Shown: positions 9,501-63,497 of the stretch, piece by piece
Layout: each line of letters begins with the position of its first letter
How positions within the stretch are numbered: position 1 is the stretch's first letter
NCBI GenBank assembly: GCA_034509925.1
Contig: CM067527.1
Coordinates: forward strand, 2,957,501-3,021,500
Direction of reading: 5' to 3'
Length of the DNA stretch: 64,000 bases
Origin: Hirudinaria manillensis
Taxonomy: Eukaryota; Annelida; Clitellata; Hirudinida; Hirudinidae
Translations under genes and position numbers: made by a program
Notes under the pieces: model-generated
The model's database searches: none
Seen by the model: only the letters and a program-made list of their open reading frames with translations
What the model was told of the DNA's origin: nothing

Positions 9501-10414
9501 GCATTTTTGTCGGACGTTGAGAACGCCTTTTCTGGTGACGATGATGCGAAGCTAAGGAAGGATGGTCTAACAAGAGTTGGACAAATCAAAGTTTACGGAG
9601 AGCCAAGGTTTGATTTTTTACAGTCGAGATTACAAAGGAGTAAATCTGGTGAGAGGTTTGGTAAAGAGCCCGATACTGTGGAACCAAAAACAACCAGAAA
9701 AAAAAGCCGAAGTCTAAGCCCGAACAGGGCATGCAACATAAATTCATACCTGCGCTGGAGAATACCCAGGCCAAAGATCCAGGAAATGCCGAGGAGTCTA
9801 CACACTGGGGTAAGAAAATCCATCTCAAGCCAGGTAGTGATGAACAGTCAAACGCCCGGAAAGAAATGGATGCCAGTCAGCGTTTCGGCCACGAGGAAGT
9901 TTCAATCGGGCAGACCTACTGGGTGTGCTGTATCCCAGCTGGAATTGAGCAGAAAATTGAGGACATTCAGGAAGGAAGTTGAATATCTTGCTGGGCACAT
10001 GCAGAAGCAAGATCGGGATATGATAGTTTGTAAACATTTTTTTTTGTGTGAATTGACCCTACAATGTGAAATAAATAAAAATCCAAATATAAAATTGATT
10101 AACCTGATTATAAAATGTTAAAAAGGATATCAATAAGATATTGTTACACGATAATGAGAACATATAATAATCATTTGATAATCATACTTGATTATGATTC
10201 TCTTTTACCTGTTATCATAATCATTTATCGGTTGATTGATCAGATATCAACAATGATACAGATAAAAGAAGATTGGAAGTTTGTGGCCAAGGTACTGGAC
10301 CGGCTTTTTCTCTACATATTTACGTCCGCTTGTGTCGTAGGAACAGTGGGAATAATATTACAAGCACCCGCCATATACGACCAGAGCACACCCATAGGGA
10401 CGGACGGGTCTTAA
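6578..10414 (+). CDS. nicotinic acetylcholine receptor alpha-type subunit
   Basis: Eight exons: 6578-6623, 7113-7255, 7590-7634, 8185-8294, 8446-8626, 8724-9039, 9232-10025, then 10262-10414 (or 10244-10414; both acceptors are phase 0), about 595-601 residues. All landmarks of a pentameric cys-loop channel subunit are visible: signal peptide ([15 protein letters not shown]), loop [11 protein letters not shown], a 13-residue Cys loop [21 protein letters not shown], and the vicinal pair in YPCCSEPY that defines an alpha subunit. M1 to M3 follow, with GEK before M2 as in cation-selective channels. A basic cytoplasmic loop of roughly 170 residues leads to M4 ([19 protein letters not shown]). Acetylcholine opens the channel at the plasma membrane of nerve or muscle. 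AATAAA at 10466-10471. The loop F region is about ten residues longer than usual. Subtype not assigned. Confidence 0.92.
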
Positions 10415-22881: not shown

Positions 22882-22932
22882 CCCTAACCCTAACACTAAC
22901 CCCCCTAACCTAACCCTAACCCCTAACCCTAA
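22882..22932. repeat. interstitial telomere-like (CCCTAA)n tract
   Basis: About eight degenerate copies of CCCTAA run together, with variants such as CACTAA, CCCCCCTAA and CCTAA. The orientation places the G-rich strand on minus. This is the common animal telomere unit found inside a gene region. Confidence 0.9.
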
Positions 22933-33751: not shown

Positions 33752-34793
33752 TATATCTATAATATGTCCTTGAGTCACTTACAGTTATTATCAATTAATT
33801 ATTGAATTATAATATTATTATTATTATTTATAGTAACTATTAGTGTCGAAGTGCCAGTCTAGAATTTAAAAGTTATTAAAGTAACAACCTAAATATTAGA
33901 TGAAGTAATTGCGATGTAATAAATTCATTTTGAAATTATTCAAAGTAAAAATGTACTAGTAAGAGTTCTGTTATAAAACCGACATGAAACAATATCAAAC
34001 GTTCTGTCCTTTTCTCTTTACGTTGCCTAACATCGCATCATCATCATCACCACGCTGCGTGGAAGGTTAAAAAAAAAAAGAATTGAAATTAATACGTGAT
34101 CCAGCAAATGATTACAATTACAATTAGAATTAGAATTACGTTGATTTCACAGCTAAATCTAAATCTTTCGTAAGTTGGAGACGAGAATTTTGTTTTCAAT
34201 CGCAACATTCACATATGTCCTCCTGGGATCTTGGGATCAAATCTTCGAGGGTGAAGCAAACACCCTAGAGAAAGGAAATTATGATTCACGATCGAGGCAT
34301 GATTTAGACTTACATTTAGACATTTATTTTTCGAATTAAACGTCGAAAATGTAGTAAATGGAATGAAAAATATTAAATATGAAAGCCATAAAGTTACACA
34401 ATATCCGATGCAAATGTTGACACCGTCTGCTCAGGACGACCCGTATTTATATTCGGGGGATGACATTGGAAAGCGAAGGTCATTCTGAATGGTTCACGGG
34501 TTCAAGGTGCAAATGAAAGATTTTTCACTAAATTCAATTTAATATGAAACAGATTTAATATGTGTAAATCTCATTATTTCTTATTTTTTTCCAGATTTAA
34601 ATTTAAATATTCAACAAAACATCAAAGGCTACCGACTATGTGTCAATTAATATTAATGTAATAATATTATTTTATTTTACATATTATTAATATATTAATT
34701 AGCATTAATATTATTTAATAAAATTTAATAATAATAATTTTTATTAATACGTAATGATTAAATAATTATTAATTAATGCGTAATGAATTCAGG

Positions 34794-36184
34794 ATGGTCC
34801 AACAATCGTATCATTCGACTTGCTTTATTCTCTTGAGTCTCATCTTCCTGGCTGCCCTTACCCACAAAGAGGTAGCAGCCAATGTAGCCTTGAGACCCTA
34901 CCATCTGGATGGCGACTACAACCACGGATACCGTCGCTACTCCATCTTCCGCAGGCAGTCCAAAGGTGACACGGGATTCAGAACCGACCTGGTGAGTCAC
35001 TGGTTTGGTAGTTGTTGGTAGAGGAAAACAGAGAAGGTAGATTATCATATAGATCACCTACAGAAGATAGGGTTAGGGTTGTAGATTATTTAATTACATT
35101 TAGTACAATTAAAGTGCAATAATTTTTATTTTTTATTCACAAGTGTGTAATTGTAGCAAAGGTTTTTGATTGCATTTGAAAGTAAATGTCTTTTTTTTTA
35201 ATCTTTCAGGGAAAACGATTCGTCGGTGGAGTTGTTGAAGCACCTATGAAGTATTTCAGGTATTATACACGCTATACCTAATAATTCTATAAGTATTTCA
35301 GGTATTAAATGTGAACCTCATCGTGTAATTTACTGTACAACAGCGATATATTATGTTATTATACACATTATATCTAATAACTCTATAAGCATTACATAGA
35401 CAACAGCTGTAGTATGTAGTACATATTCAGTCCATTAGTTTGCGATATTTCTATTTACTGTTTATTTTACATTTTAAATTTTTTTACTTTTAATATTTTC
35501 ACCTCCATTTCCCTGCGGTCTGTGAATTCATTTCCTTCTGATCTCAGAAGGACTCCTCGTAGGAATGTTTCATTTGCCTTTTATCTGCCGGGGTCACGAC
35601 CTCCTCTCCTGACCTTTGAACTTTTCGTGGATAATCAAATAAAGGGGAGAACAGATAAAAAATAACACACCTAAATCCTACGCCATTTCACCTCGGATAA
35701 TGTCTTAAATGTCTCTCGGCTTTTAATTTATCTTTGTTGGTTTTTTTTATAAATATTGTAATTGCGGCTATAAATATTATACTCGTGGCTATAAATATTA
35801 ATGATGTGGCTTTATTACTATAATTATTTTCAGGCTTATATTATTAAATAGTTTTATTAATTTATTATTTAATGCCGATACTATTTAAAAACGTGACAAC
35901 CGCTTTTTCAAACTATTCTGACCAAAGTAATATTAAATATCTTGTCACTGAAACATAAGAAGTCATTACAGCATTTAATGTCGTAGATTTTAGATATTAC
36001 AAAAAAAAAACAATTTAACCATTTTTCACTTTTCACTCAATGGGTATTATTAATAATTATATTAATATTAATTATTTTTTAAATTTGAACAACCATCAGA
36101 GACGATGACTTTTCCTACGAGGACTTCAATGACATCAACGAGCAGAAGAGGAGAATGTTCAGAAACGATCTCGGAAAGAAATAA
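34794..36184 (+). CDS. gene A: secreted prepropeptide with RR and GKR sites
   Basis: Coding exons are 34794-34991, 35210-35259 and 36100-36184, 110 residues. The ATG follows an acceptor (ATTCAG at 34787-34792), so a 5' untranslated exon exists upstream. Residues 1 to about 30 are a signal peptide (SYHSTCFILLSLIFLAALTH). The rest has RR (FRR, then QSKGDTGFRTDL) and GKR at the exon 2/3 junction. Cleavage at RR and GKR would release a 12-residue Gln-starting peptide with a C-terminal amide; this is inference from the usual prohormone rules. The C-terminal exon is acidic (DDDFSYEDFNDINEQ). There are no Cys residues in the mature part. AATAAA at 36394-36399. Gene B at 62.6 kb is a paralogue with the same signal peptide and junction. 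Confidence 0.75.
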
Positions 36185-36807: not shown

Positions 36808-37285
36808 ATAATAATGTCAAGCTACATGTTAACTTAATCAGATAACTAAAAAGAAATTTGTAAATAATTTTATTGAAGGAAGATCGTCCAAAAACGTGGA
36901 GACAGTGGCCAAAGAATAGTAATTGAGTGATCATCCCATCTTTCAATTATGAAGGCTCTCTTTCTTGCACTTTGATGATCTGCATAAAACATACCTGTGG
37001 TTACAGTCCAAACGCTGTTGTTCATTTCAAGGATAATTAATGTATTATTAATAATAATTTTAAACAATGTGCTAATTATTATGAATTATTTAATAATAAT
37101 AAACCGTTATAATGCTGTTTATCTCTTTTTATAACTAAATATTTAAATTAATAATAATAATTATGATACAATGTTACTATAGCTCGTTCTATAGTCAAAG
37201 TTAATTTTAATTAAAGACACTCCTGGTCTGGCCTAGTTAAATATTAATATAATAATGTCAAGCTACATGTTAACTTAATCAGATA
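36808..37285. repeat. 38-bp direct repeat bracketing the broken gene D copy
   Basis: Copies at 36808-36845 and 37248-37285 share ATAATGTCAAGCTACATG and flanks. The sequence between them is the partial duplicate of gene D's last exon. Confidence 0.8.
36846..37100 (+). pseudogene. truncated, frameshifted copy of the last exon of gene D
   Basis: The sequence matches 39264-39520 closely, including the downstream untranslated part. It lacks the first part of the exon and has one A fewer in the run that encodes the KKR site, so the frame breaks after RSSK. No signal peptide exon accompanies it. The LINE insertion that follows the intact gene is absent here. Confidence 0.8.
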
Positions 37286-38128: not shown

Positions 38129-39349
38129 ATGATCCAACCAAAAGACATGAGATTCCAACTTCTGATGCTTCTCATCTTCTTTGGTTACTGTAGAAGCCGT
38201 GCTAGCAGATATGCGAATGATGGTAATGCTGATGGTGGTGCTGATATAGATGCTGTAAGATTAAGGATGATACTCGTTGTGTGGTAAATGTTATTCAAAG
38301 TATCACAAATTTACTGCAACACTTGATGAGTCATAAGTGGTAAATGTTCAACACAAAAACACCAATAAACTCAGTGGTATTTTCTAATTAGTGATGTAGA
38401 ATATAGATAATACTAAATTAAATTAAATTGTTTCGGGGCTCATTTCATAAATCCATTTTATATAAATTGATTGATAAAATAATTCATTTCTTTATTAAGG
38501 AAAGTGTAGCTCGGACACTGATGCATGAAGAAGGATTTTATTGTGGGGTATCGTATTTGTATTTATGATGATTTTTCTACATGTAGGAGCATGTCAATAG
38601 CAAGGCTTCCTTCTTGAATGATACTTGACCAATTTCTGATGTGCTGTCACTTACTAATGATACATAATGCAATAATGCCATAAATATTCAATATTTTAAT
38701 ACTTTCATATTTTTTAATACAATATTACTATATTAATTTTGAGTAAATGTTATTTTAGGGCGACCATGAAGGAACATTAGTCATCAGAAACATTAGGCAG
38801 CAAAACCGTGATGATGATGATGATAAACGTGGTGATGGAAACTATTATGTCTATGACGGTCAAAAGTATTTAAATTAATTTTTTATTTTATCTGGTAATT
38901 AATTTAGACGCATGAAAATCAAATCTATTAGATATGAATTTCAGTGTGGAGTTATTTTTAGCGGTGGATTCATACAAATCTCATGCAATCCAATATCCAA
39001 AATACTTTGTGGATCATAAATTTATTTTTAATATTTAATTTTTAAAAGACATTTATACCACCATACTGCCTTGCAGTATGAATGCAGGTTCTAATTCAAA
39101 TATTGAAAATATTCCAACTAATATAGTATTTCACACGAATGTTTCATGTGCTTAAAAAGATTATTTATTTTGATGATAGTCATCCAAGCCAACGTTAATC
39201 TTAAATGCAGTTATCAAGATGACTATGAAGTTCCACGAATTAAGAGGCCAAGATATCCTTTATCTAAAAAGAACTTTGTAAATAATTTTATCGAAGGAAG
39301 ATCGTCCAAAAAACGTGGAGACAGTGGCCAAAGAATAGTAATTGAGTGA
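38129..39349 (+). CDS. gene D: secreted acidic precursor with two dibasic sites
   Basis: Exons 38129-38254, 38759-38865 and 39211-39349 join in phase (0, then 2) to give 123 residues. Exon 1 is a signal peptide (RFQLLMLLIFFGYCRSRAS). Exon 2 has a run of five Asp before KR (DDDDDKRGDGNYYVYDG), exon 3 a furin-like KKR (SSKKRGDSGQRIVIE) at the C-terminus. After both dibasic sites the next residues are GD, creating RGD. The exon 2 donor (AAAA|GTATTT) resembles the donors of gene E exon b, and the terminal exon phase matches gene E, so the two genes may be related. Alternative: exon 2 may read through to a TAA at 38878, and 39146-39349 may be a separate 67-codon gene, since MCLKRLFILMIVIQANVN is itself signal-like. 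Function unknown. Confidence 0.55.
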
Positions 39350-39599
39350 TCATCCCATCTTTCAGTAATGAAGGCTGTCTTTCTTGAACTTTGATGATCT
39401 GCATAAAACATACCTGTGGTTAGAGTCCAAACGCTGTTGTTCATTTCAAGGATAATTAATGTATTATTAATAATAAGTTTAAACAATGTGCTAATTATTA
39501 TGAATTATTTAATAATAATAATAATAAACAGTTATAATGCTGTTTGTCTCTTGTTATAATCAAATATTTAAGGTAAAAATAATAATTACAACACAATGA

Positions 39600-41672: not shown

Positions 41673-44600
41673 ATGACCCAACGAAAAGGTCTGACGATAC
41701 TCCTATTCTTCCTGACGTCTCTCATTTCCATTGACGCCCTGGTTAACTGTGGAAAGGTGGCAGATGAAGATAACAGGTTTCCACAGGTCGGAAGTGATTA
41801 CCAAGAAGAGGACAAGCTAAAGACTGATCCGCCGGTTAGCTCTTAGAATATTTTATTAATTGGATTATAATAACTGATTAATCAGAAACCATCGATTGAT
41901 TAATTGAATAATAATAATAATGATAATATTTTAATTAAAAAATTGAATGGAAATTAATAAAAGCATTTAATTTAGCAAGAGATGAGCTGAGGTTATATCA
42001 ATTATACAATATTTATTAAGTTATTAAAATTATTTTCAATAATTATTTTTAATTATTTAATTATTACGTCATTATTTTTGAACGATTAATGTTTACATTT
42101 AATTAAACAATGTAGTGCTATCCTGCTTATGACGTGGAAACACCGGAAGAATATCCACAAGATCTGCAAGAACCAGTGCTGATTGTAAATTTATAAACTT
42201 CTGATTATTTTTTTTCTTTAAGAATGCATCGTTGCATCGCAATATAATTTTAAAATTATAATTAATAAAATTAAAATAATTATATCTATTACACTGGGTC
42301 CATGGTTATAACACTATTATTGGAAATAATTTAATAAAAACAATGTTTCTAATGTGAGGATGAAACACATCAACATGAAATCGACTCCGACGAGACTCGG
42401 ACCGCAGAATTGTAAGTTGCTTCCTCTTAAATATAACAGTTAGAAGTAATAAGTTTAAAATCTTTCTAAATGTTTTTGCAAAATATTCTTATATAATTCG
42501 TGCTATAATACAGAGTCATTTAACAAAATTAAATTTTCAATAAAATAATTTATCATTTCAAAAAAATACACAAAATAATCCACTTATGCAAACATCTTCG
42601 TTGAATATAACGTTCAATCCATCACAGTACAGATGATGATCATGAACAAAACAATGGCGAATACCAACCAAATCCAAAATTTAAAACGGATAAAGTATTT
42701 TCCCCGCCTCTAGTATATTTATTAAATTGTTACAAATTATTTTTAAAGCTCAATCAATAAATAGCTACTCAATAATTATTAATTTATTAACTGATAATTT
42801 ATTATCATAAATCACTATAATCATAACATATCATAATCACATCATAATCATTTATAATCAAAAAAGAAATCCTTAGGATGTTTATTCATTAATTACCTCA
42901 TTAAATACAATTAATTAACTCATTAAGTACGACCATGGTTATGAAGAGGAACAAACAATGAAACGACCGGAAAAATCGCATCCTGTAAATTTATAAACTT
43001 CTGATTATTTTTTTAAAATGTTTTCTTTAATATGATATTATTAGAAAATAATTTATTGGATTTATATTATTTGAAATAAATTAATGAAAATAATGTTTCC
43101 AATGTAAGGATGAAACACATCAACATGAAATCGTATCTGTCAAGACTTTGAAGACAAAAGCGTAAGTTACTTTTGATCTTGAATTAATTAAAAGTTATCG
43201 AGTAAAACAACAGTTAGAAGTGATAAGTTTTAAAATCTTTCCAAATGTTTTTGCAAAATATTCTTATATAATTCGTGCTGAGATACAGGGTCATTTAACA
43301 AATTAAATTTTCAATAAAATATTTATCATTTAAAATCATCGCCTCGTCACAAAATAATCCACTTATTCAAACATCTTTCTTGAATATAACGTTCAATCCA
43401 CCACAGTAAAGATGATGATCATGAAGAAAACAATGGCGAATACCAACCAAATCCAAAATTTAAAACGGATAAAGTATTTCCCCGCCTCTAGTATATTTAT
43501 TAAATTGTTACAAATTATTTTTAAAGCTCAATCAATCAATAAATAGCTTCTCAATAATTATTAATTTATTAACTGATAATTTATTATCATAAATCACTAT
43601 AATCATAACATATCATAATCATTTATAATCAAAAAAGAAATCCTTAGGATGTTAATTCATTAAATACAATTAATTAACACATTAAGTACGACCATGATGA
43701 TGAAGAGGAACAAACAATGAAACGACCGGAAAAATCGCATCCTGTAAATTTATAAACTTCTAATTATTATTTTTCTTAAAGAATGTATCGTTGCATCGAA
43801 TTATAATTAGTATAATTATTATAATTATATCTATTATACTGGGTCCATGGTTACAACACTATTATTGGAAATAAATTAATAAAAACAATGTTTCTAATGT
43901 GAGGATGAAACACATCAACATGAAATCGACTCCGGCAAGACTTGGAGCACAGAATTGTAAGTTGCTTCCTCGTAAATTCAACAGTTAGTGGTAATAAGTT
44001 TAAAATCTTTCTAAATGTTTTTGCAAAATATTCTTATATAATTCGTGCTGAGATACAGGGTCATTTAACAAATTTAAATTTTCAATAAAATAATTTATCA
44101 TTTCAAATCATCGCCTCGTCACAAAATAATCCACTTATTCAAACATCTTCGTTGAATATAACGTTCAATCCACCACAGTAAAGATGATGATCATGAAGAA
44201 AACAATGGCGAATACCAACCAAATCCAAAATTTAAAACGGATAAAGTATTTTCCCCGCCTCTAGTATATTTATTAAATTGTTACAAATTATTTTTAAAGC
44301 TCAATCAATAAATAGCTTCTCAATAATTATTAATTTATTAACTGATAATTTATTATCATAAATCACTATAATCATAACATATCATAATCATTTATAATCA
44401 TAACAGAAATCCTTAGGATGTTAATTCATTAAATACCTCATTAAATACAATTAATTAACACATTAAGTACGACCATGGTTATGAAGAGGAACCAACAGTG
44501 AAAGGAACGGAAAAATCGCATCCTGTAAATTTATAAACTTCTGATTATAATTTTTCTTAAAGAATGTATCGTTGCATCGAATTATAATTAATATAATTAT

Positions 44601-47600
44601 TATAATTATATCTATTATACTGGGTCCATGGTTACAACACTATTATTGGAAATAAATTAATAAAAACAATGTTTCTAATGTAAGGATGAAACACATCAAC
44701 ATGAAATCGACTCCGGCAAGACTTGGAGCACAGAATTGTAAGTTGCTTCCTCGTAAATTCAACAGTTAGTGGTAATAAGTTTCAAATCTTTCTAAATGTT
44801 TTTGCAAAATATTCTTATATAATTCGTGCTGCGATACAGGGTCATTTAACAAATTTAAATTTTCAATAAAATGGTTTATCATTTAAAATCATCGCCTCGT
44901 CACAAAATAATCCACTTATTCAAACATCTTTCTTGAATATAACGTTCAATCCACCACAGTAAAGATGATGATCATGAAGAAAACAATGGCGAATACCAAC
45001 CAAATCCAAAATTTAAAACGGATAAAGTATTTTCCCCGCCTCTAGTATATTTATTAAATTGTTACAAATTATTTTTAAAGCTCAATCAATAAATAGCTTC
45101 TCAATAATTATTAATTTATTAACTGATAATTAATTATCATAAATTACTATAATCATAACATATCATAATCATTTATAATCATAACAGAAATCCTTAGGAT
45201 GTTAATTCATTAAATACCTCATTAAATACAATTAACACATTAAGTACGACCATGGTTATGAAGAGGAACCAACAGTGAAAGGAACGGAAAAATCGCATCC
45301 TGTAAATTTATAAACTACTGATTATAATTTTTCTTAAAGAATGTATCGTTGCATCGCATTATAATTAATATAATTATTATAATTATATCTATTATACTGG
45401 GTCCATGGTTACAACACTATTATTGGAAATAATTTAATATAAACAATGTTTCCGACATGAGGATGAAACGCATCAACATGAAATCGACTCCGACGAGACT
45501 TGGAGCACAGAATTGTAAGTTGCTTCCTCGTAAATTCAACAGTTAGTGGTAATAAGTTTAAAATCTTTCTAAATGTTTTTGCAAAATATTCTTATATAAT
45601 TCGTGCTGAGATACAGGGTCATTTAACAAATTTAAATTTTCAATAAAATAGTTTATCATTTAAAATCATCGCCTCGTCACAAAATAATCCACTTATTCAA
45701 ACATCTTTCTTGAATATAACGTTCAATCCACCACAGTACAGATGATGATTATGAAGAAAACGATGGCGAATACCAACCAAATCCAAAATTTAAAACGGAT
45801 AAAGTATTTTCCCCGCCTCTAGTATATTTATTAAATTGTTACAAATTATTTTTAAAGCTCAATCAATAAATAGCTTCTCAATAATTATTAATTTATTAAC
45901 TGATAATTTATTATCAAAAATCACTATTATCATAACATATCATAATCATTTATAATCATAACATAAATCCTTAGGATGTTAATTCATTAAATACAATTAA
46001 CACATTAAGTACGACCATGGTTATGAAGAGGAACCAACAGTGAAAGGATCGGAAAAATCGCATCCTGTAAATTTAGAAACTTCTGATTATTTTTTTTTAA
46101 ATTTTTCTTTAATATGATATTATTAGAAATAATTTATTGGAATTATATTATTGGAAATAATTTAATATAAACAATGTTTCCGACATGAGGATGAAACGCA
46201 TCAACATGAAATCGTATCTGTCAAGACTTTGAAGACAAAAGCGTAACTTACTTTTGATCTTGAATTAATTAAAAGTTATCGTGTGAAATATTTTTTGCAA
46301 AATATGTCTATATAATTCGCTCGTTGAACATGCTTAAACGTTCATCAAAATGCTTAATTATTTAGTAATTCAATGCATCATCGCAACATAATTCACTTGA
46401 ACGTACATCTCTATTGAACATATCCCACAACAGTTAGAAGTGATAAGTTTAAAATCTTTCCAATTGTTTTTGCAAAATATTCTTATATAATTCGTGCTAA
46501 GATACAGGGTCATTTCATAAATTAAAATTTTCAATAAAATAATTTATCATTTAAAATCATCGCCTCGTCACAAAATAATCCACTTATTCAAACATCTTCG
46601 TTGAATATAACGTTCAATCCACCACAGTAAAGATGATGATCATGAAGAAAACAATGGCGAATACCAACCAAATCCAAAATTTAAAACGGATCAAGTATTT
46701 GCCCCGCCTCTAGTATATTTATTAAATTGTTACAAATTATTTTTAAAGCTCAATCAATAAATAGCTTCTCAATAATTATTAATTTATTAACTGATAATTT
46801 ATTATCATAAATCACTATGATCATAACATATCATAATCACATCATAATAATTTATAATCAAAAAAGAAATCCTTAGGATGTTAATTCATTAAATACAATT
46901 AACACATTAAGTACGACCATGGTTATGAAGAGGAACCAACAGTGAAAGGAACGGAAAAATCGCATCCTTAAATTTATAAACTTCTAATTATTATTTTTCT
47001 TAAAGAATGTATCGTTGCATCGAATTATAATTAAAATAATTATTATAATTATATCTATTATACTGGGTGCATGGTTACAACACTATTATTGGAAATAAAT
47101 TAATAAAAACAATGTTTCTAATGTAAGGATGAAACACATCAACATGAAATCGACTCCGACGAGACTTGGAGCACAGAATTGTAAGTTGCTTCCTCGTAAA
47201 TTCAACAGTTAGTGGTAATAAGTTTAAAATCTTTCTAAATGTTTTTGCAAAATATTCTTATATAATTCGTGCTGAGATACAGGGTCATTTAACAAATTTA
47301 AATTTTCAATAAAATAGTTTATCATTTAAAATCATCGCCTCGTTACAAAATAATCCACTTATGCAAACATCTTCGTTGAATATAACGTTCAATCCACCAC
47401 AGTAAAGATGATGATCATGAAGAAAACAATGGCGAATACCAACCAAATCCAAAATTTAAAACGGATAAAGTATTTTCCCCGCCTCTAGTATATTTATTAA
47501 ATTGTTACAAATTATTTTTAAAGCTCAATCAATAAATAGCTTTTAAATAATGAATAATTTATTAACTGATAACTTATTATCATAGATCACTATAATCATA

Positions 47601-50600
47601 ACATATCATAATCACATCATAATCATTTATAATCAAAAAGAAATCCTTAGGATGTTAATTCATTAAATACAATTAACACATTAAGTACGACCATGGTTAT
47701 GAAGAGGAACCAACAGTGAAAGGATCGGAAAAAATCGCATCCTGTAAATTTATAAACTTCTGATTATAATTTTTTCTTAAAGAATGTATCGTTGCATCGA
47801 ATTATAATTAATATAATTATTATAATTATATCTATTATACTGGGTCCATGGTTACAACACTATTATTGGAAATAAATTAATAAAAACAATGTTTCTAATG
47901 TAAGGATGAAACACATCAACATGAAATCGACTCCGGCAAGACTTGGAGCACAGAATTGTAAGTTGCTTCCTCGTAAATTCAACAGTTAGTGGTAATAAGT
48001 TTAAAATCTTTCTAAATGTTTTGCAAAATATTCTTATATAATTCGTGCTGAGATACAGGGTCATTTAACAAATTTAAATTTTCAATAAAATAGTTTATCA
48101 TTTAAAATCATCGCCTCAATACAAAATAATCCACTTATGCAAACATCTTCGTTGAATATAACGTTCAATCCACCACAGTAAAGATGATGATCATGAAGAA
48201 AACAATGGCGAATACCAACCAAATCCAAAATTTAAAACGGATAAAGTATTTTCCCCGCCTCTAGTATATTTATTAAATTGTTACAAATTATTTTTAAAGC
48301 TCAATCAATAAATAGCTTCTCAATAATTATTAATTTATTAACTGATAATTTATTATCATAAATCACTATAATCATGACATATCATAATCACATCATAATC
48401 ATTTATAATCAAAAAAGAAATCCTTAGGATGTTAATTCATTAAATACAATTAACACATTAAGTACGACCATGGTTATGAAGAGGAACCAACAGTGAAAGG
48501 AACGGAAAAATCGCATCCTGTAAATTTATAAACTACTGATTATAATTTTTCTTAAAGAATGTATCGTTGCATCGCATTATAATTAATATAATTATTATAA
48601 TTATATATTATACTGGGTCCATGGTTACAACACTATTATTGGAAATAAATTAATAAAAACAATGTTTCTAATGTAAGGATGAAACACATCAACATGAAAT
48701 CGACTCCGGCAAGACTTGGAGCACAGAATTGTAAGTTGCTTCCTCGTAAATTCAACAGTTAGTGGTAATAAGTTTAAAATCTTTCTAAATGTTTTTGCAA
48801 AATATTCTTATATAATTCGTGCTGAGATACAGGGTCATTTAACAAATTTAAATTTTCAATAAAATAGTTTATCATTTAAAATCATCGCCTCGTAACAAAA
48901 TAATCCACTTATGCAAACATCTTCGTTGAATATAACGTTCAATCCACCACAGTAAAGATGATGATCATGAAGAAAACAATGGCGAATACCAACCAAATCC
49001 AAAATTTAAAACGGATAAAGTATTTTCCCCGCCTCTGGTATATTTATTAAATTGTTACAAATTATTTTTAAAGCTCAATCAATAAATAGCTTCTCAATAA
49101 TTATCAATTTATTAACTGATAATTAATTATCATAACATATCATAATCATTTACAATCATAACAGAAATCCTTAGGATGTTAATTCATTAAATACCTCATT
49201 AAATACAATTAATTAACACATTAAGTACGACCATGGTTATGAAGAGGAACCAACAGTGAAAGGAACGGAAAAATCGCATCCTGTAAATTTATAAACTACT
49301 GATTATAATTTTTCTTAAAGAATGTATCGTTGCATCGAATTATAATTAATATAATTATTATAATTATATCTATTATACTGGGTCCATGGTTACAACACTA
49401 TTATTGGAAATAAATTAATAAAAACAATGTTTCTAATGTAAGGATGAAACACATCAACATGAAATCGACTCCGGCAAGACTTGGAGCACAGAATTGTAAG
49501 TTGCTTCCTCGTAAATTCAACAGTTAGTGGTAATAAGTTTAAAATCTTTCTAAATGTTTTTGCAAAATATTCTTATATAATTCGTGCTGAGGTACAGGGT
49601 CATTTAACAAATTTAAATTTTCAATAAAATAGTTTATCATTTAAAATCATCGCCTCGTCACAAAATAATCCACTTATTCAAACATCTTTCTTGAATATAA
49701 CGTTCAATCCACCACAGTACAGATGATGATCATGAAGAAAACAATGGCGAATACCAACCAAATCCAAAATTTAAAACGGATAAAGTATTTTCCCCGCCTC
49801 TAGTATATTTATTAAATTGTTACAAATTATTTTTAAAGCTCAATCAATAAATAGCTTCTCAATAATTATTAATTTATTAACTGATAATTTATTATCATAA
49901 ATCACTATAATCATAACATATCATAATCATTTATAATCAGAAAAGAAATCTTTAGGATGTTAATTCATTAATTACCTCATTAAATACAATTAATTAATAC
50001 ATTAAGTACGACCATGGTTATGAAGAGGAACCAACAGTGAAAGGAACGGAAAAATCGCATCCTGTAAATTTATAAACTTCTGATTATTATTTTTCTTAAA
50101 GAATGTATCGTTGCATCGCATTATAATTAATATAATTATTATAATTATATCTATTATACTGGGTCCATGGTTACAACACTATTATTGGAAATAAATTAAT
50201 AAAAACAATGTTTCTAATGTGAGGATGAAACACATCAACATGAAATCGACTCCGAGGAGACTCGGACTGCAGAATTGTAAGTTGCTTCCTCTTAAATTCA
50301 ACAGTTAGTGGTAATAAGTTTAAAATCTTTCAAAATGTTTTTCCAAAATATTCTTCTATAATTCGTGCTGACATACATGGTCATTTAACAAATTTAAATT
50401 TTCAATAAAATAATTTATCATTTAAAATCATCGCCACGTCACAAAATAAACCACTTATGAAAACATCGTTGAATATAACGTTCAATCCATCACAGTACAC
50501 TTGATGATTATGAACAAAACAATGGCGAATACCAACCAAATCCAAAATCGGATCAAGTATTTTCCCCGCCTCTAGTATATTTATTAAATTGTTTCCAAAT

Positions 50601-53600
50601 TATTTTTAAAGCTCAATCAATAAATAGCTTCTCAATAATTATTAATTTATTAACTGATAATTTATTATCATAAATCACTATAATCATAACATATCATAAT
50701 AACATCATAATCATTTATAATCATAAAAGAAATCCTTAGGATGTTTATTCATTAATTACCTCATTAATTCCAATTAATTAACTCATTAAGTACGACCATG
50801 GTTATGAAGAGGAACAAACAATGAAACGACCGGAAAAATCGCATCCTGTAAATTTAGAAACTTCTGATTATTTTTTTAAAATTTTTCTTTAATATGATAT
50901 TATTAGAAATAATTTATTGGATTTATATTATTTGAAATAATTTAATGAAAATAATGTTTCCAATGCGAGGTTGAAACACATCAAGATGAAATCGTATCTG
51001 TCAAGACTTTGAAGACAAAAGCGTAACTTACTTTTGATCTTGAATTAATTAAAAGTTATCGAGTAAAATATTTTTTTGCAAAATATGTCTATATAATTCG
51101 CTCGTTGAACATCAAAACGTTCATCAAAATGCTTAATTATTTAGTAATTCAATGCATCATCGCAACATAATTCACTTGAACGTACATCTCTATTGAACAT
51201 ATCCCACAACAGTTAGAAGTGATAAGTTTAAAATCTTTCCAATTGTTTTTGCAAAATATTCTTATATAATTCGTGCTAAGATACAGGGTCATTTCATAAA
51301 TTAAAATTTTCAATAAAATAATTTATCATTTAAAATCATCGCCTCGTCACAAAATAATCCACTTATTCAAATATCTTCGTTGAATATAACGTTCAATCCA
51401 CCACAGTAAAGATGATGATCATGAAGAAAACAATGGCGAATACCAACGAAATATAAAACTTAAAACGGATCAAGTATTTGCCCCGCCTCTAGTATATTTA
51501 TTAAATTGTTACAAATTATTTTTAAAGCTCAATCAATAAATACCTCATCAATAAATAGCTTCTCAATAATTATTAATTTATTAACTGATAATTTATTATC
51601 ATAAATCACTATAATCATAACATATCATAATCACATCATAATCATTTATAATCAAAAAAGAAATCCTTAGGATGTTAATTCATTAAATACAATTAACACA
51701 TTAAGTACGACCATGGTTATGAAGAGGAACCAACAGTGAAAGGAACGGAAAAATCGCATTCTGTAAATTTATAAATTTCTGATTATAATTTTTCTTAAAG
51801 AATGTATCGTTGCATCGAATTATAATTAATATAATTATTATAATTATATCTATTATACTGGGTCCATGGTTACAACACTATTATTGGAAATAAATTAATA
51901 AAAACAATGTTTCTAATGTAAGGATGAAACACATCAACATGAAATCGACTCCGGCAAGACTTGGAGCACAGAATTGTAAGTTGCTTCCTCGTAAATTCAA
52001 CAGTTAGTGGTAATAAGTTTCAAATCTTTCTAAATGTTTTTGCAAAATATTCTTATATAATTCGTGCTGAGATACAGGGTCATTTAACAAATTTAAATTT
52101 TCAATAAAATAGTTTATCATTTAAAATCATCGCCTCGTAACAAAATAATCCACTTATGCAAACATCTTCGTTGAATATAACGTTCAATCCACCACAGTAA
52201 AGATGATGATCATGAAGAAAACAATGGCGAATACCAACCAAATCCAAAATTTAAAACGGATAAAGTATTTTCCCCGCCTCTGGTATATTTATTAAATTGT
52301 TACAAATTATTTTTAAAGCTCAATCAATAAATAGCTTCTCAATAATTATCAATTTATTAACTGATAATTAATTATCATAAATTACTATAATCATAACATA
52401 TCATAATCATTTATAATCATAACAGAAATCCTTAGGATGTTAATTCATTAAATACCTCATTAAATACAATTAACACATTAAGTACGACCATGGTTATGAA
52501 GAGGAACCAACAGTGAAAGGAACGGAAAAATCGCATCCTGTAAATTTATAAACTTCTGATTATAATTTTTCTTAAAGAATGTATCGTTGCATCGAATTAT
52601 AATTAATATAATTATTATAATTATATCTATTATACTGGGTCCATGGTTACAACACTATTATTGGAAATAAATTAATAAAAACAATGTTTCTAATGTAAGG
52701 ATGAAACACATCAACATGAAATCGACTCCGGCAAGACTTGGAGCACAGAATTGTAAGTTGCTTCCTCGTAAATTCAACAGTTAGTGGTAATAAGTTTCAA
52801 ATCTTTCTAAATGTTTTTGCAAAATATTCTTATATAATTCGTGCTGCGATACAGGGTCATTTAACAAATTTAAATTTTCAATAAAATGGTTTATCATTTA
52901 AAATCATCGCCTCGTCACAAAATAATCCACTTATTCAAACATCTTCGTTGAATATAACGTTCAATCCACCACAGTAAAGATGATGATCATGAAGAAAACA
53001 ATGGCGAATACCAACCAAATCCAAAATTTAAAACGGATAAAGTATTTTCCCCGCCTCTAGTATATTTATTAAATTGTTACAAATTATTTTTAAAGCTCAA
53101 TCAATAAATAGCTTCTCAATAATTATTAATTTATTAACTGATAATTAATTATCATAAATTACTATAATCATAACATATCATAATCATTTATAATCATAAC
53201 AGAAATCCTTAGGATGTTAATTCATTAAATACCTCATTAAATACAATTAACACATTAAGTACGACCATGGTTATGAAGAGGAACCAACAGTGAAAGGAAC
53301 GGAAAAATCGCATCCTGTAAATTTATAAACTACTGATTATAATTTTTCTTAAAGAATGTATCGTTGCATCGAATTATAATTAATATAATTATTATAATTA
53401 TATCTATTATACTGGGTCCATGGTTACAACACTATTATTGGAAGTAAATTAATAAAAACAATGTTTCTAATCTAAGGATGAAACACATCAACATGAAATC
53501 GACTCCGACGAGACTTGGAGCACAGAATTGTAAGTTGCTTCCTCGTAAATTCAACAGTTAGTGGTAATAAGTTTAAAATCTTTCTAAATGTTTTTGCAAA

Positions 53601-56600
53601 ATATTCTTATATAATTCGTGCTGAGATACAGGGTCATTTAACAAATTTAAATTTTCAATAAAATGGTTTATCATTTAAAATCATCGCCTCGTCACAAAAT
53701 AATCCACTTATTCAAACATCTTTCTTGAATATAACGTTCAATCCACCACAGTAAAGATGATGATCATGAAGAAAACAATGGCGAATACCAACCAAATCCA
53801 AAATTTAAAACGGATAAAGTATTTTCCCCGCCTCTAGTATATTTATTAAATTGTTACAAATTATTTTTAAAGCTCAATCAATAAATAGCTTCTCAATAAT
53901 TATTAATTTATTAACTGATAATTAATTATCATAAATTACTATAATCATAACATATCATAATCATTTATAATCAAAAAAGAAATCCTTAGGATGTTAATTC
54001 ATTAAATACAATTAACACATTAAGTACGACCATGGTTATGAAGAGGAACCAACAGTGAAAGGAACGGAAAAATCGCATTCTGTAAATTTATAAATTTCTG
54101 ATTATTTTTTTAAAATATTTCTTTAATATGATATTATTAGAAATAATTTATTGGATTTATATTATTTGAAATAATTTAATGAAAATAATGTTTCCAATGC
54201 GAGGTTGAAACACATCAAGATGAAATCGTATCTGTCAAGACTTTGAAGACAAAAGCGTAACTTACTTTTGATCTTGAATTAATTAAAAGTTATCGTGTGA
54301 AATATTTTTTTGCAAAATATGTCTATATAATTCGCTCGTTGAACATGTTTAAACGTTCATCAAAATGCTTAATTATTTAGTAATTCAATGCATCATCGCA
54401 ACATAATTCACTTGAACGTACATCTCTATTGAACATATCCCACAACAGTTAGAAGTGATAAGTTTAAAATCTTTCCAATTGTTTTTGCAAAATATTCTTA
54501 TATAATTCGTGCTAAGATACAGGGTCATTTCATAAATTAAAATTTTCAATAAAATAATTTATCATTTAAAATCATCGCCTCGTCACAAAATAATCCACTT
54601 ATTCAAACATCTTCGTTGAATATAACGTTCAATCCACCACAGTAAAGATGATGATCATGAAGAAAACAATGGCGAATACCAACGAAATATAAAACTTAAA
54701 ACGGATCAAGTATTTTCCCCGCCTCTAGTATATTTATTAAATTGTTACAAATTATTTTTAAAGCTCAATCAATAAATAGCTTCTCAATAATTATTAATTT
54801 ATTAACTGATAATTTATTATCATAAATCACTATGATCATAACATATCATAATCACATCATAATAATTTATAATCAAAAAAGAAATCCTTAGGAGGTTAAT
54901 TCATTAAATACCTCATTAAATACAATTAACACATTAAGTACGACCATGGTTATGAAGAGGAACCAACAGTGAAAGGAACGGAAAAATCGCATCCTTAAAT
55001 TTATAAACTTCTAATTATTATTTTTCTTAAAGAATGTATCGTTGCATCGAATTATAATTAAAATAATTATTATAATTATATCTATTATACTGGGTGCATG
55101 GTTACAACACTATTATTGGAAATAAATTAATAAAAACAATGTTTCTAATGTAAGGATGAAACACATCAACATGAAATCGACTCCGACGAGACTTGGAGCA
55201 CAGAATTGTAAGTTGCTTCCTCGTAAATTCAACAGTTAGTGGTAATAAGTTTAAAATCTTTCTAAATGTTTTTGCAAAATATTCTTATATAATTCGTGCT
55301 GAGATACAGGGTCATTTAACAAATTTAAATTTTCAATAAAATAGTTTATCATTTAAAATCATCGCCTCGTTACAAAATAATCCACTTATGCAAACATCTT
55401 CGTTGAATATAACGTTCAATCCACCACAGTAAAGATGATGATCATGAAGAAAACAATGGCGAATACCAACCAAATCCAAAATTTAAAACGGATAAAGTAT
55501 TTGCCCCGCCTCTAGTATATTTATTAAATTGTTACAAATTATTTTTAAAGCTCAATCAATAAATAGCTTCTCAATAATTATTAATTTATTAACTGATAAT
55601 TTATTATCATAAATCACTATAATCATAACATATCATAATCACATCATAATCATTTATAATCAAAAAAGAAATCCTTAGGATGTTAATTCATTAAATACAA
55701 TTAACACATTAAGTACGACCATGGTTATGAAGAGGAACCAACAGTGAAAGGAACGGAAAAATCGCATCCTGTAAATTTATAAACTTCTGATTATAATTTT
55801 TCTTAAAGAATGTATCGTTGCATCGAATTATAATTAATATAATTATTATAATTATATCTATTATACTGGGTCCATGGTTACAACACTATTATTGGAAATA
55901 AATTAATAAAAACAATGTTTCTAATGTAAGGATGAAACACATCAACATGAAATCGACTCCGGCAAGACTTGGAGCACAGAATTGTAAGTTGCTTCCTCGT
56001 AAATTCAACAGTTAGTGGTAATAAGTTTAAAATCTTTCTAAATGTTTTTGCAAAATATTCTTATATAATTCGTGCTGAGATACAGGGTCATTTAACAAAT
56101 TTAAATTTTCAATAAAATAGTTTATCATTTAAAATCATCGCCTCAATACAAAATAATCCACTTATGCAAACATCTTCGTTGAATATAACGTTCAATCCAC
56201 CACAGTAAAGATGATGATCATGAAGAAAACAATGGCGAATACCAACCAAATCCAAAATTTAAAACGGATAAAGTATTTTCCCCGCCTCTAGTATATTTAT
56301 TAAATTGTTACAAATTATTTTTAAAGCTCAATCAATAAATAGCTTCTCAATAATTATTAAATTATTAACTGATAATTTATTATCATAAATCACTATGATC
56401 ATAACATATCATAATCACATCATAATCATTTATAATCAAAAAAGAAATCCTTAGGATGTTAATTCATTAAATACAATTAACACATTAAGTACGACCATGG
56501 TTATGAAGAGGAACCAACAGTGAAAGGAACGGAAAAATCGCATCCTGTAAATTTATAAACTTCTGATTATAATTTTTCTTAAAGAATGTATCGTTGCATC

Positions 56601-59426
56601 GAATTATAATTAATATAATTATTATAATTATATATATTATACTGGGTCCATGGTTACAACACTATTATTGGAAATAAATTAATAAAAACAATGTTTCTAA
56701 TGTAAGGATGAAACACATCAACATGAAATCGACTCCGGCAAGACTTGGAGCACAGAATTGTAAGTTGCTTCCTCGTAAATTCAACAGTTAGTGGTAATAA
56801 GTTTAAAATCTTTCTAAATGTTTTTGCAAAATATTCTTATATAATTCGTGCTGAGATACAGGGTCATTTAACAAATTTAAATTTTCAATAAAATAGTTTA
56901 TCATTTAAAATCATCGCCTCGTAACAAAATAATCCACTTATGCAAACATCTTCGTTGAATATAACGTTCAATCCACCACAGTAAAGATGATGATCATGAA
57001 GAAAACAATGGCGAATACCAACCAAATCCAAAATTTAAAACGGATAAAGTATTTTCCCCGCCTCTGGTATATTTATTAAATTGTTACAAATTATTTTTAA
57101 AGCTCAATCAATAAATAGCTTCTCAATAATTATCAATTATCAATTTATTAACTGATAATTAATTATCATAACATATCATAATCATTTACAATCATAACAG
57201 AAATCCTTAGGATGTTAATTCATTAAATACCTCATTAAATACAATTAATTAACACATTAAGTACGACCATGGTTATGAAGAGGAACCAACAGTGAAAGGA
57301 ACCGAAAAATCGCATCCTGTAAATTTATAAACTACTGATTATAATTTTTCTTAAAGAATGTATCGTTGCATCGAATTATAATTAATATAATTATTATAAT
57401 TATATCTATTATACTGGGTCCATGGTTACAACACTATTATTGGAAATAATTTAATATAAACAATGTTTCCGACATGAGGATGAAACGCATCAACATGAAA
57501 TCGACTCCGGCAAGACTTGGAGCACAGAATTGTAAGTTGCTTCCTCTTAAATTCAACAGTTAGTGGTAATAAGTTTAAAATCTTTCTAAATGTTTTTGCA
57601 AAATATTCTTATGTAATTCGTGCTGAGGTACAGGGTCATTTAACAAATTTAAATTTTCAATAAAATAATTTATCATTTAAAATCATCGCCTCGTCACAAA
57701 ATAATCCACTTATTCAAACATCTTTCTTGAATATAACGTTCAATCCACCACAGTAAAGATGATGATCATGAAGAAAACAATGGCGAATACCAACGAAATC
57801 TAAAACTTAAAACGGATCAAGTATTTTCCCCGCCTCTAGTATATTTATTAAATTGTTACAAATTATTTTTAAAGCTCAATCAATAAATAGCTTCTCAATA
57901 ATTATTAATTTATTAACTGATAATTTATTATCATAAATCACTATAATCATAACATATCATAATCATTTATAATCACAAAAGAAATCTTTAGGATGTTAAT
58001 TCATTAATTACCTCATTAAATACAATTAATTAACACATTAAGTACGACCATGGTTATGAAGAGGAACCAACAGTGAAAGGAACGGAAAAATCGCATCCTG
58101 TAAATTTATAAACTTCTGATTATTATTTTTCTTAAAGAATGTATCGTTGCATCGAATTATAATTAATATAATTATTATAATTATATCTATTATACTGGGT
58201 CCATGGTTATAACACTATTATTTGAAATAAATTAATAAAAACAATGTTTCTAATGTGAGGATGAAACACATCAACATGAAATCGACTCCGACGAGACTTG
58301 GACCGCAGAATTGTAAGTTGCTTCCTCTTAAATTCAACAGTTAGTGGTAATAAGTTTAAAATCTTTCTAAATGTTTTTGCAAAATATTCTTCTATAATTC
58401 GTGCTGACATACAGGGTCATTTAACAAATTTAAATTTTCAATAAAATAACTTATCATTTAAAATCATCGTCACGTCACAAAATAATCCATTTATGCAAAC
58501 ATCTTCGTTGAATATAACGTTCAATCCATCACAGTACACTTGATGATTATGAACAAAACAATGGCGAATACCAACCAAATCCAAAATCGGATCAAGTATT
58601 TTCCCCGCCTCTAGTATATTTATTAAATTGTTACAAATTATTTTTAAAGCTCAATCAATAAATAGCTTTTAAATAATGAATAATTTATTAACTGATAACT
58701 TATTATCATAGATCATTATAATCACATCATAATCATTTATAATTATAAATGAAATCCATAGGATGTTAATTAATTAATTACCTCATTAAATACAATTAAT
58801 TAACTCATTAAGTACGACCATGGTGATGAAGAGGAACCAACAGTGTTTGGACCGGGAAAATCGCAGCCTGTAAATTTATAAACTTCTGATTATTTTTTTT
58901 TTAATTTTTCTTTAAGATGATATTATTAGAAATAATTTATTGGAATTATATTATTGGAAATAATTTAATGAAAATAATGTTTCCAATGCGAGGTTGATAC
59001 ACATCAAGATGAAATCGTCTCTGTCGAGCCTTGGAAGACAAATGCGTAACTTACTTTTATCTTGAATTAATTATAAGTAATCGTGTGAAATATTTTTTTG
59101 CAAAATATGTCTATATAATTCGCTCGTCGAACATGTTTAAACGTTCATTAAAATGCTTAATTATTCAATAATTATTTAGTAATTCAATGCATCATCGCAA
59201 CATGATTCACTTGAACGTACATCTCTATTGAACATATCCCACAATCCGACACAGCGATAACGACGACGACGACGATGATGAGGAACAAGAGATTCCTCAA
59301 CAGTCTCAACTATCCCTAATAGCAGATCGAGAAAGGCCAAGGATGGAAAGACCGGAAAGACCCGGGCATAGATTTCCATCAAAACTCATAAGAGAAAAGC
59401 GTCAGATAAAATCCCCCTATTGTTGA
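41673..59426 (+). CDS. gene E: secreted repeat protein encoded by a tandem micro-exon array
   Basis: Signal-peptide exon 41673-41834 (KGLTILLFFLTSLISIDALV), exon 42116-42184, then repeated exons a (53 nt), b (67 nt), c (57 nt), and a terminal exon 59255-59426. Exon a starts: 42359, 43109, 43904, 44685, 45462, 46190, 47128, 47905, 48678, 49443, 50224, 50970, 51923, 52700, 53477, 54204, 55155, 55931, 56707, 57479, 58260, 58993. Exon b: 42628, 43407, 44179, 44960, 45737, 46628, 47403, 48179, 48953, 49718, 50496, 51407, 52198, 52975, 53752, 54643, 55430, 56206, 56982, 57754, 58535. Exon c: 42928, 43687, 44468, 45245, 46010, 46912, 47686, 48463, 49226, 50007, 50791, 51706, 52483, 53260, 54025, 54939, 55714, 56490, 57262, 58043, 58813. 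Phases are 0-2, 2-0, 0-0, so a whole unit is frame-neutral and adds 59 residues (a: DETHQHEID; b: DDDHEENNGEYQPNP; c: YDHGYEEE). Using all exons gives about 1390 residues. The tail has REKR before QIKSPYC. No family recognised. Confidence 0.85.
46912..46968 (+). other. gene E exon c of unit 6 with lost splice donor
   Basis: The normal CATCCT|GTAAAT boundary reads CATCCTTAAAT: the G of the donor GT is gone. If retained, the exon runs straight into TAA. The exon is 57 nt in phase 0/0, so skipping it would keep the frame. Confidence 0.85.
47686..47743 (+). other. gene E exon c of unit 7 with one-base insertion
   Basis: One extra A in the GGAAAAATC run makes the exon 58 nt. Inclusion would shift the frame of everything downstream; skipping would restore it. 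The matching exon in unit 17 (55714-55770) is normal, so the change came after the block duplication, or is an assembly error. Confidence 0.8.
50970..58992 (+). repeat. higher-order block, copy 2 (units 12-21)
   Basis: Matched private variants include the lost donor in exon c (units 6/16), CCTCAATACAAAATAA (units 8/18), CATTTACAATCATAAC (units 9/19), GCTGAGGTACAGGG (units 10/20), and the 61-nt exon b (units 11/21). Confidence 0.85.
54939..54995 (+). other. gene E exon c of unit 16 with lost splice donor
   Basis: The same loss of the donor G as in unit 6, shared because the two units descend from one ancestor by the 8-kb block duplication. Confidence 0.85.
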
Positions 59427-62484: not shown

Positions 62485-62559
62485 TAATAATTATTTATTA
62501 CTTTAATTATTATTATTAATGTTAATGTTAGTTAATACTAATTACGCTTTGAATGCAGG

Positions 62560-63497
62560 ATGGCACAGCAAGCGTATCACTCGACCTGTTTACTTCTCCT
62601 TGTCCTCATTTTCTTGGCTGTACACAAAGAGGTGTCGGCACAGGAAGCGCCAAAGCAAGAAGCAGCTCGCCGCCCTTGCCGTCCTGCCACTGGATTCGTA
62701 ACGGATCTCGTGAGTAAAGTGGTTCAGTGGATCTTTATGGAAGAATTTGGTTTTGAAATCCTCCTTAGACGAATTTGTTCTGCTGTACACGGATTGTGAA
62801 ATAGAATTTCGTTTAAATGTGATGGTTAAACTGTCGAGGGGCGATTCTATTTGGACTATTCTTTTCTATTTTTTTTTTATGTATTATATCAAATTATATT
62901 AAATATTAAATTAAACTTTAATTAAGTGATGATCGTAATGAAACAACAAAATATTTAATTACACTGTCCATGTAGGACTAGTAACAACTGTAATGATATA
63001 CAACTTAAGTTGTCAAATGAACTTTCATTTTGCAGGGTAAGAGAGCTTCAGGTGGAGTAACCTGTCCCCCAGGTATTAAACTTGTAATAACGTGCAATAA
63101 GCCATTCTTATTTGACAAAATAGGGCAGTTTTTACAAAACTTCATTACTAGGCCACTCTCTCTACTATGCCACATTTGCTCGGTCCCGTCGGGTGGCATA
63201 GTAGCGAGACTTGAGTGTGTATTTATAAAGTATTATACTTTAAAATTGAAACTTCCAAATCTTCACGGCGTAATATTACATTACTAATATAATTATACTA
63301 AGGCTTCACATTTCATGGGAATAAAATTTTTAATGCCAAAATTGATCGAAATAAATGTAATGATAAAAACAAAATGATTCTTTTTCTTTTCCAGAAAATG
63401 CAGCAGACGTTATCCAGACGATGTCAGCCTTAAAAATGCTGCTTATGTTGATGCCGTTGTCCCTTTCGAGGATGCTATCACTTTGCTAATTTTATGA
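62560..63497 (+). CDS. gene B: Cys-rich secreted paralogue of gene A
   Basis: Exons 62560-62709, 63036-63229 and 63395-63497 give 148 residues. The ATG follows an acceptor (ATGCAG). The signal peptide (AYHSTCLLLLVLIFLAVH) matches gene A, as does TGFVTDL|GKR at the first junction and the donor GTATTATAC of exon 2. Exon 2 is 144 nt longer than in gene A and adds a hydrophobic, Cys-bearing stretch (ITRPLSLLCHICSVPSGG). The mature protein has seven Cys residues, while gene A has none. Exon 3 ends YVDAVVPFEDAITLLIL. AATAAA at 63497-63502 overlaps the TGA. Alternative: a donor at 63072 (GTATTA) would give a short exon 2 and shift exon 3 into a worse frame, so I prefer the long form. Function unknown. 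Confidence 0.65.

Follow-up and report, generated by a model that had tools for sequence, protein, structure and literature searches.

The window analysed here is a 64,000-nucleotide stretch of DNA (C2:2957501–3021500) from the blood-feeding medicinal leech Hirudinaria manillensis, in an assembly of 148,429,096 bases and 23 contigs. At 41673–59426 on its + strand lies a predicted gene of 17.75 kb with a total of 67 exons, a single leech gene that is built almost wholly of three small exons multiplied 21 times. From our reading of the sequence and the location of exon copies by pattern, the exon order is S, c0, 21 times a-b-c, a22 and T. We read this, with a probability of about 0.65, as a single protein-coding gene of H. 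manillensis (or of a close Poecilobdella), which would encode a secreted acidic protein bearing His and Tyr, with cysteine-free repeats.

All parts of the gene are on the + strand. Exon S (41673–41834) contains the start codon and the signal peptide, followed by a tail that is similar to the last part of exon b; an alternative in-frame donor inside it (CAG/GTCGGA, after 41786) is also possible. Exon c0 (42116–42184) is a diverged copy of exon c, 69 nucleotides (nt) long and of phase 0-0, and holds one of the three cysteines of the modelled product. The 21 a-b-c units, located by pattern, follow at 42359–58869, where successive unit starts are 727–953 nt apart; unit 3 is an intact example (a 43904–43956, b 44179–44245, c 44468–44524). 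A lone exon a22 (58993–59045) precedes the tail exon T (59255–59426), which has an acidic head, a basic tail and a TGA stop ending at 59426.

All 22 copies of exon a are 53 nt long. Of the 21 copies of exon b, 19 measure 67 nt and two (units 11 and 21) measure 61 nt, and of the 21 copies of exon c, 20 measure 57 nt and one, c7, measures 58 nt. All 64 array exons have the acceptor AG, and 62 of them have the donor GT (a 22/22, b 21/21, c 19/21). The initial annotation had described exons of 53, 67 and 57 nt, repeated 21 times in fixed order and followed by a partial unit, between a signal-peptide exon at the 5' end and a C-terminal exon at the 3' end, with 67 exons in total at 41673–59426, and this is borne out by the coordinates.

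Exon S ends in phase 0, exon a runs from phase 0 to 2, b from 2 to 0 and c from 0 to 0, while T starts in phase 2. Because of these phases, exon c may be left out by itself, a and b can be left out only together, and a must be succeeded by b or T. By phase, the gain, loss or skipping of whole units, of a-b pairs or of c is frame-neutral. This supports the earlier description of a multi-exon repeat gene, probably secreted, whose length could vary through such events. However, the accompanying claim that every unit is frame-neutral fails, as unit 7 is 178 nt long and c6 and c16 are without a donor.

Three copies of exon c are broken. In c6 (46912–46968) a G is lost and with it the donor GT, and reading through gives an in-frame TAA. 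Exon c16 (54939–54995) has lost its donor GT through the same lesion; units 6 and 16 are 99% identical, a rounded figure. In exon c7 (47686–47743) a run of A is six bases long instead of five, which shifts the frame and creates a TGA at the junction with a8. If c7 alone is omitted the product has 1367 residues, with the donor-less c6 and c16 still included, and if c6, c7 and c16 are all omitted it has 1329 residues, an isoelectric point of 4.55 and a mass of 157 kDa including the signal peptide.

Predicted product and searches for relatives

The modelled 1329-residue product contains 16.1% Glu, 12.5% Asp, 10.2% Lys, 9.4% Thr, 7.1% His, 6.4% Pro and 4.7% Tyr. A richness in Asp, Glu, His, Tyr and Pro had been proposed initially; Glu and Asp are indeed foremost, but Lys and Thr are more abundant than His, Tyr or Pro. 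The 59-residue unit has 19 acidic residues, five His, six Lys, three Tyr and no Cys, and there are three Cys in the entire modelled product. The sole strongly hydrophobic segment is at the N-terminal end, with the most hydrophobic 12-mer within exon S, and we infer that the product is secreted. A peptide precursor was considered and rejected: dibasic sites number only five, including one within the signal peptide, and a single RxKR motif lies close to the C-terminal end, in exon T, so there is not one cleavage site per unit. The modelled product contains no Arg-Gly-Asp (RGD) or Lys-Gly-Asp (KGD) tripeptide and no HHXDD or HXDD motif.

As a protein, the 59-residue unit, which the initial annotation had singled out for such a search, matches the leech's own genome at C2:2.9999–3.0164 Mb only. 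The whole unit as DNA gives 28 matches in a search that omits very common words, 27 of them inside the gene and one of 40 bp elsewhere on C2, so a transposon or dispersed repeat was rejected. A protein query of S and c0 matched this locus alone and revealed no second copy of the array in the genome, while the tail exon matched itself and five weak acidic segments (E-values 0.049 to 2.5). Paralogous arrays were rejected on the basis of these three queries.

In the protein database, the 208-residue short form has no relative at E≤10 among the 69 candidates scored, and a 560-residue form has none at E≤10 among the 7996 candidates scored, those that had the most words in common with it. Within these two candidate sets, single-unit relatives in other animals were rejected too. 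The short form matches no Pfam family at E≤1, a two-unit piece gives two sub-threshold Pfam matches (E 0.27 and 0.32), and Rfam has no match within the window at the gathering threshold. No description of this gene was found in the literature searched, a search that did not extend to the gene list of the genome paper and its supplements. As far as the protein sequence is concerned, and within the two protein searches and Pfam, the earlier statement that the gene belongs to no family yet described stands.

It can be speculated that the product would be an extended, multivalent polyanionic and His-rich secretion acting by avidity, with metal ions or cationic host proteins as putative targets; this is the weakest step of our proposal. 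Among blood-feeding, metal-binding and mucus roles, a gland secretion has a modest lead, and this only because of the host biology and the small secreted genes nearby. It is quite possible that the gene is real and makes a structural secretion, such as mucus, cocoon, sucker adhesive or a metal-binding matrix, and not a blood-meal factor. An acidic repeat without cysteine would suit such a role, as would the failure to find a sequence relative or a Pfam family. However, no positive evidence points to a structural role, and the small secreted genes nearby, of which one encodes two RGD tripeptides and another a KGD in our translations, would fit a blood-feeding gland set, although they do not prove it.

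Constraint on the array exons

Several features of the array favour coding. The 64 array exons have a guanine plus cytosine (GC) content of 0.385 (0.426 for a, 0.306 for b and 0.437 for c), and the introns that separate them one of 0.231. Insertions and deletions (indels) occupy two distinct intervals in the exons, where 8.9 are expected from the 31 intronic ones (p=0.013); this test is approximate, as the copies have a common history and the outcome depends on the alignment. Coding is also favoured by reading phases that agree from S and c0 through a, b and c to T.

Other results weigh against a coding gene. If all 67 exons are joined, a stop occurs after 490 residues. The GC content of exon b is below that of a and c. 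The exons diverge about as much as the introns, with a mean p of 0.103, 0.051 and 0.040 for a, b and c and of 0.055, 0.032 and 0.106 for the introns. When 18 units are compared in 153 pairs, with units 7, 11 and 21 excluded for their length, the pooled ratio of nonsynonymous to synonymous differences (pN/pS) comes to 1.75. In these 18 units the absence of stops is unsurprising (P 0.13–0.22, by transition weight), and neither pN/pS nor the comparison of exon and intron divergence gives any indication that purifying selection acts on the amino acids. Positive selection was considered, as the ratio looked suggestive, and rejected after a count test: the minimum changes among the 18 units are 5 synonymous and 31 nonsynonymous, a skew that is not significant (P 0.09–0.32, depending on the transition weight). 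Because the indels, GC content and phase point one way and the substitutions another, the data modestly support a constraint on length and frame, whereas a constraint on amino acids is unsupported.

A degenerating, dead or once-coding array, amplified by recent duplication and now neutral, would account for exons no more conserved than introns, for the pN/pS above one and for the defects in three of the 21 c exons, one of them a frameshift. However, such an array would not be expected to keep exon a at 53 nt in 22 of 22 copies and exon b at 67 nt or an in-frame 61 nt, to have fewer exonic indels than expected, or to retain nearly all of its donors and every acceptor. In addition, all three defects sit in the sole exon type that is skippable alone in frame. 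We consider a neutral array rather unlikely. In a functional gene, the three defective c exons would be tolerated because c can be skipped in frame.

A more far-reaching proposal is that the array is a splice-length machine, in which one gene would give rise to a broad range of polymer lengths, and the gain, loss or skipping of units, not point mutation, would tune the size and valency of the secreted polyanion. Without c6, c7 and c16, 2.8 × 10^13 in-frame forward-skipping products are possible, a figure that is arithmetic and no proof that such products exist. We regard this proposal as a long shot. If true, the array would be a cysteine-free counterpart of the decorsin exon arrays of this leech. 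The skippable exon c and its three broken copies offer a direct test of splicing as a shelter for damaged exons.

Higher-order repeat and growth of the array

The 22 copies of exon a were sorted by hand from their translation into four classes (R, K, G and D), and the class order along the array is RKGGDKDGGG RKGGDKDGGG RK. At lag 10 this string matches itself in 12 of 12 positions, and a perfect match at any lag from 1 to 12 was seen in 0 of 200000 shuffles. The array consists of two higher-order blocks, units 1–10 (42359–50223) and units 11–20 (50224–58259), each running once through the ten-class series RKGGDKDGGG, and a terminal part (58260–59045) with unit 21 (class R) and the lone a22 (assigned to class K). 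The two blocks are 98.0% identical over 7842 aligned bases.

It is very unlikely that the unit number and the higher-order repeat are partly an assembly artefact, in which assembly would have enlarged or scrambled a gene that is real but shorter: the length of the gene is close to the mean of the high-fidelity (HiFi) reads, stated as 18.73 kb in the section of the genome report cited here (PMC10671345), some unit pairs are 99–100% identical (rounded figures) and an extra base in a run of A, as in c7, is a common kind of sequencing error, but the blocks differ at about 2% of their aligned sites and carry private variants, c7 among them, which would not arise from a mere copy error.

Similarity to the array is also found outside the units. 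Exon c0 aligns to exon c as DNA (p=0.001), with about 30 identical bases across the donor and into the intron. The intron that precedes T is a diverged copy of the a-b intron (p=0.001), 65.5% identical to that of unit 3 over 171 bases; in both cases p=0.001 is the floor of 1000 single-base shuffles. The tail of S aligns to exon b as protein (p=0.0025 from shuffling, without correction for the nine protein comparisons to which it belongs). The remaining comparisons tell against such an extension: the S tail also resembles exon c at the protein level (p=0.023), and no significant similarity is found between S and b as DNA (p=0.15), between T and b as protein (p=0.07) or between c0 and c as protein (p=0.41). 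From the alignments of c0, the T intron and the S tail, we conclude that the module structure extends from c0 to T, and probably into S.

In units 6, 12 and 16, which are of class K, the a-b intron is 384–386 nt long, and its first ~190 bases (~200 columns) align to the terminal intron with 88.5–91.5% identity. In the a-b intron of unit 2 the likeness to the terminal intron covers 46 columns only (87%), and in that of unit 3, the one ordinary unit tested, such a start is absent. The simplest account of these starts would be that unequal crossing-over brought part of the 3' end of the gene into the array. We suggest that the ancestor could have been a short S-c0-(abc)-a-T gene that was enlarged by unequal crossing-over, in which the units multiplied first, and then a block that already held part of the 3' end. 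The 21 copies, the ten-unit repeat and the internal traces of the terminal intron would then be a record of the array's own growth steps.

Neighbouring genes and known systems

A modelled three-exon gene at 38129–39346 (+ strand) encodes a small secreted protein that contains two RGD tripeptides and a run of acidic residues. It matches no Pfam family at E≤1, and elsewhere in the genome it has, besides a partial copy at 36842, a weak match on contig C12 (E 0.081). Its tail lies in a duplicated segment (36843–37173 and 39261–39598, 92% identical over 338 aligned bases). A kinship between this gene and the array was considered and is not claimed, as there are only matches of 29 bp and 20 bp. Two paralogous small secreted genes flank the array, at 34794–36184 and at 62560–~63490. 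Their DNA is 73% identical over 161 bp across the start codons (34716–34873 and 62485–62633), the one at 34794–36184 carries a KGD tripeptide, and neither has a further match in the genome at E≤10.

The window also contains exons of a ligand-gated ion channel subunit (8069–10118; Neur_chan_LBD and Neur_chan_memb), a PROPPIN-like exon on the - strand (15179–15475, E 2.1e-9) and an interstitial telomere-like CCCTAA repeat (22882–22932). Outside the window, contig C23 (15,581 bp) is the mitochondrial contig. In the part that was read, cox1, cox2, cox3, trnQ, nad6 and cob lie on one strand, all but cox1 and trnQ named from our own reading of the sequence, in a gene order that we take to be annelid. 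Among the best 120 of 7999 candidates scored, its COX1 is 97% identical to that of Poecilobdella javanica and 96% to that of Hirudinaria manillensis over 98% of the length, followed by 89% to one further record and 88–87% to those of Haemopis and Hirudo.

The initial annotation compared the array gene with the micro-exon genes of parasitic flatworms and gave its larger exons and its whole-unit tandem expansion as the differences. The likeness in small exons and skipping stands, but the contrast in tandem expansion is weakened by a 1988 paper that, judging by its title, reportedly describes tandemly repeated exons in schistosomes. Like the present gene, with 65 of its 67 predicted exons at 53–69 nt, the schistosome micro-exon genes have mostly small coding exons, and their products are secreted and include skipping isoforms, according to the passages cited (PMC10526429, PMC4350168). 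In these passages the majority of the small exons are symmetric, whereas here a and b are not multiples of three and only c (57 nt, 20 of 21 copies) and c0 (69 nt) are symmetric. Furthermore, a single three-exon module repeats in order here, unlike in the schistosome genes as described there. The two protein searches at E≤10, among the 7996 and 69 candidates scored, and the Pfam search with the short form brought up no homologous micro-exon gene protein. A gene like the present one, in which all but two of the 67 exons are shorter than 70 nt, may escape gene finders.

The KIV-2 units of LPA each carry exons separated by an intron, and their kringle domain has cysteines. KIV-2 is a coding tandem repeat, as is the present array, but it encodes a kringle domain and is known to be polymorphic in copy number, with 5.6 kb per unit and 1–40 units in the excerpts cited (PMC11462820, PMC11201333). 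Closer to the present species, bdellin-HM-2 of H. manillensis is also a leech protein with a His/Asp-rich repeated segment, its tail, and the cited part of its description states that it prolongs the activated partial thromboplastin time and does not inhibit the proteases tested (PMC6591161). However, it has a six-Cys Kazal-type domain and HHXDD and HXDD motifs in that description, while the product modelled here has neither motif and its 208-residue short form no Pfam match at E≤1.

The proposed growth of the array resembles the exon multiplication that has been proposed by the authors for a leech tandem hirudin. In the Tandem-Hirudin gene of H. manillensis exons 4 and 5 are structured like exons 2 and 3, and more rounds of exon duplication were proposed to lead to multiple domains (PMC9464118, in the passages cited). 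As presented there, it is a single duplication of a hirudin-like cysteine domain, whereas the array has 21 cysteine-free units.

The multimeric decorsin genes are the closest precedent. In four of these genes of H. manillensis (Hman_DV1, 2, 3 and 5) an exon pair is repeated 4 or 6 times, preceded by a signal-peptide exon and in two genes ended by a tail exon, and exon skipping in one of them was calculated by the authors to allow 196 products (PMC12651989). The present gene is from the same species and shares the signal-peptide exon, the tandem exon set, the tail exon, the in-frame skipping rules set by phase and the calculated isoform numbers. However, the decorsin module has two exons, in genes of 9–14 exons, and encodes a six-Cys globular domain with RGD or KGD, whereas here a three-exon module is repeated in 21 units and 67 exons, and the unit has neither cysteines nor these tripeptides. 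The decorsin cluster is on chromosome 4 at 12.10–12.12 Mb in the Liu assembly (12.10–12.25 Mb with the hirudins), and the array is at C2:2.9999–3.0164 Mb; contig and chromosome numbers are assumed to correspond, but the position within the contig differs too. Because of the cysteine-free unit, the lack of RGD and KGD and the different contig, the gene is similarly built but is not a member of the decorsins or of the hirudin superfamily. The oligomeric hirudins and decorsins of leeches had shown that exon pairs are multiplied in this lineage. As the locus is on another contig and its repeat is unrelated to hirudins and decorsins, the multiplication of exons may be more widespread among the secreted genes of leeches, and not a peculiarity of the hirudin superfamily.

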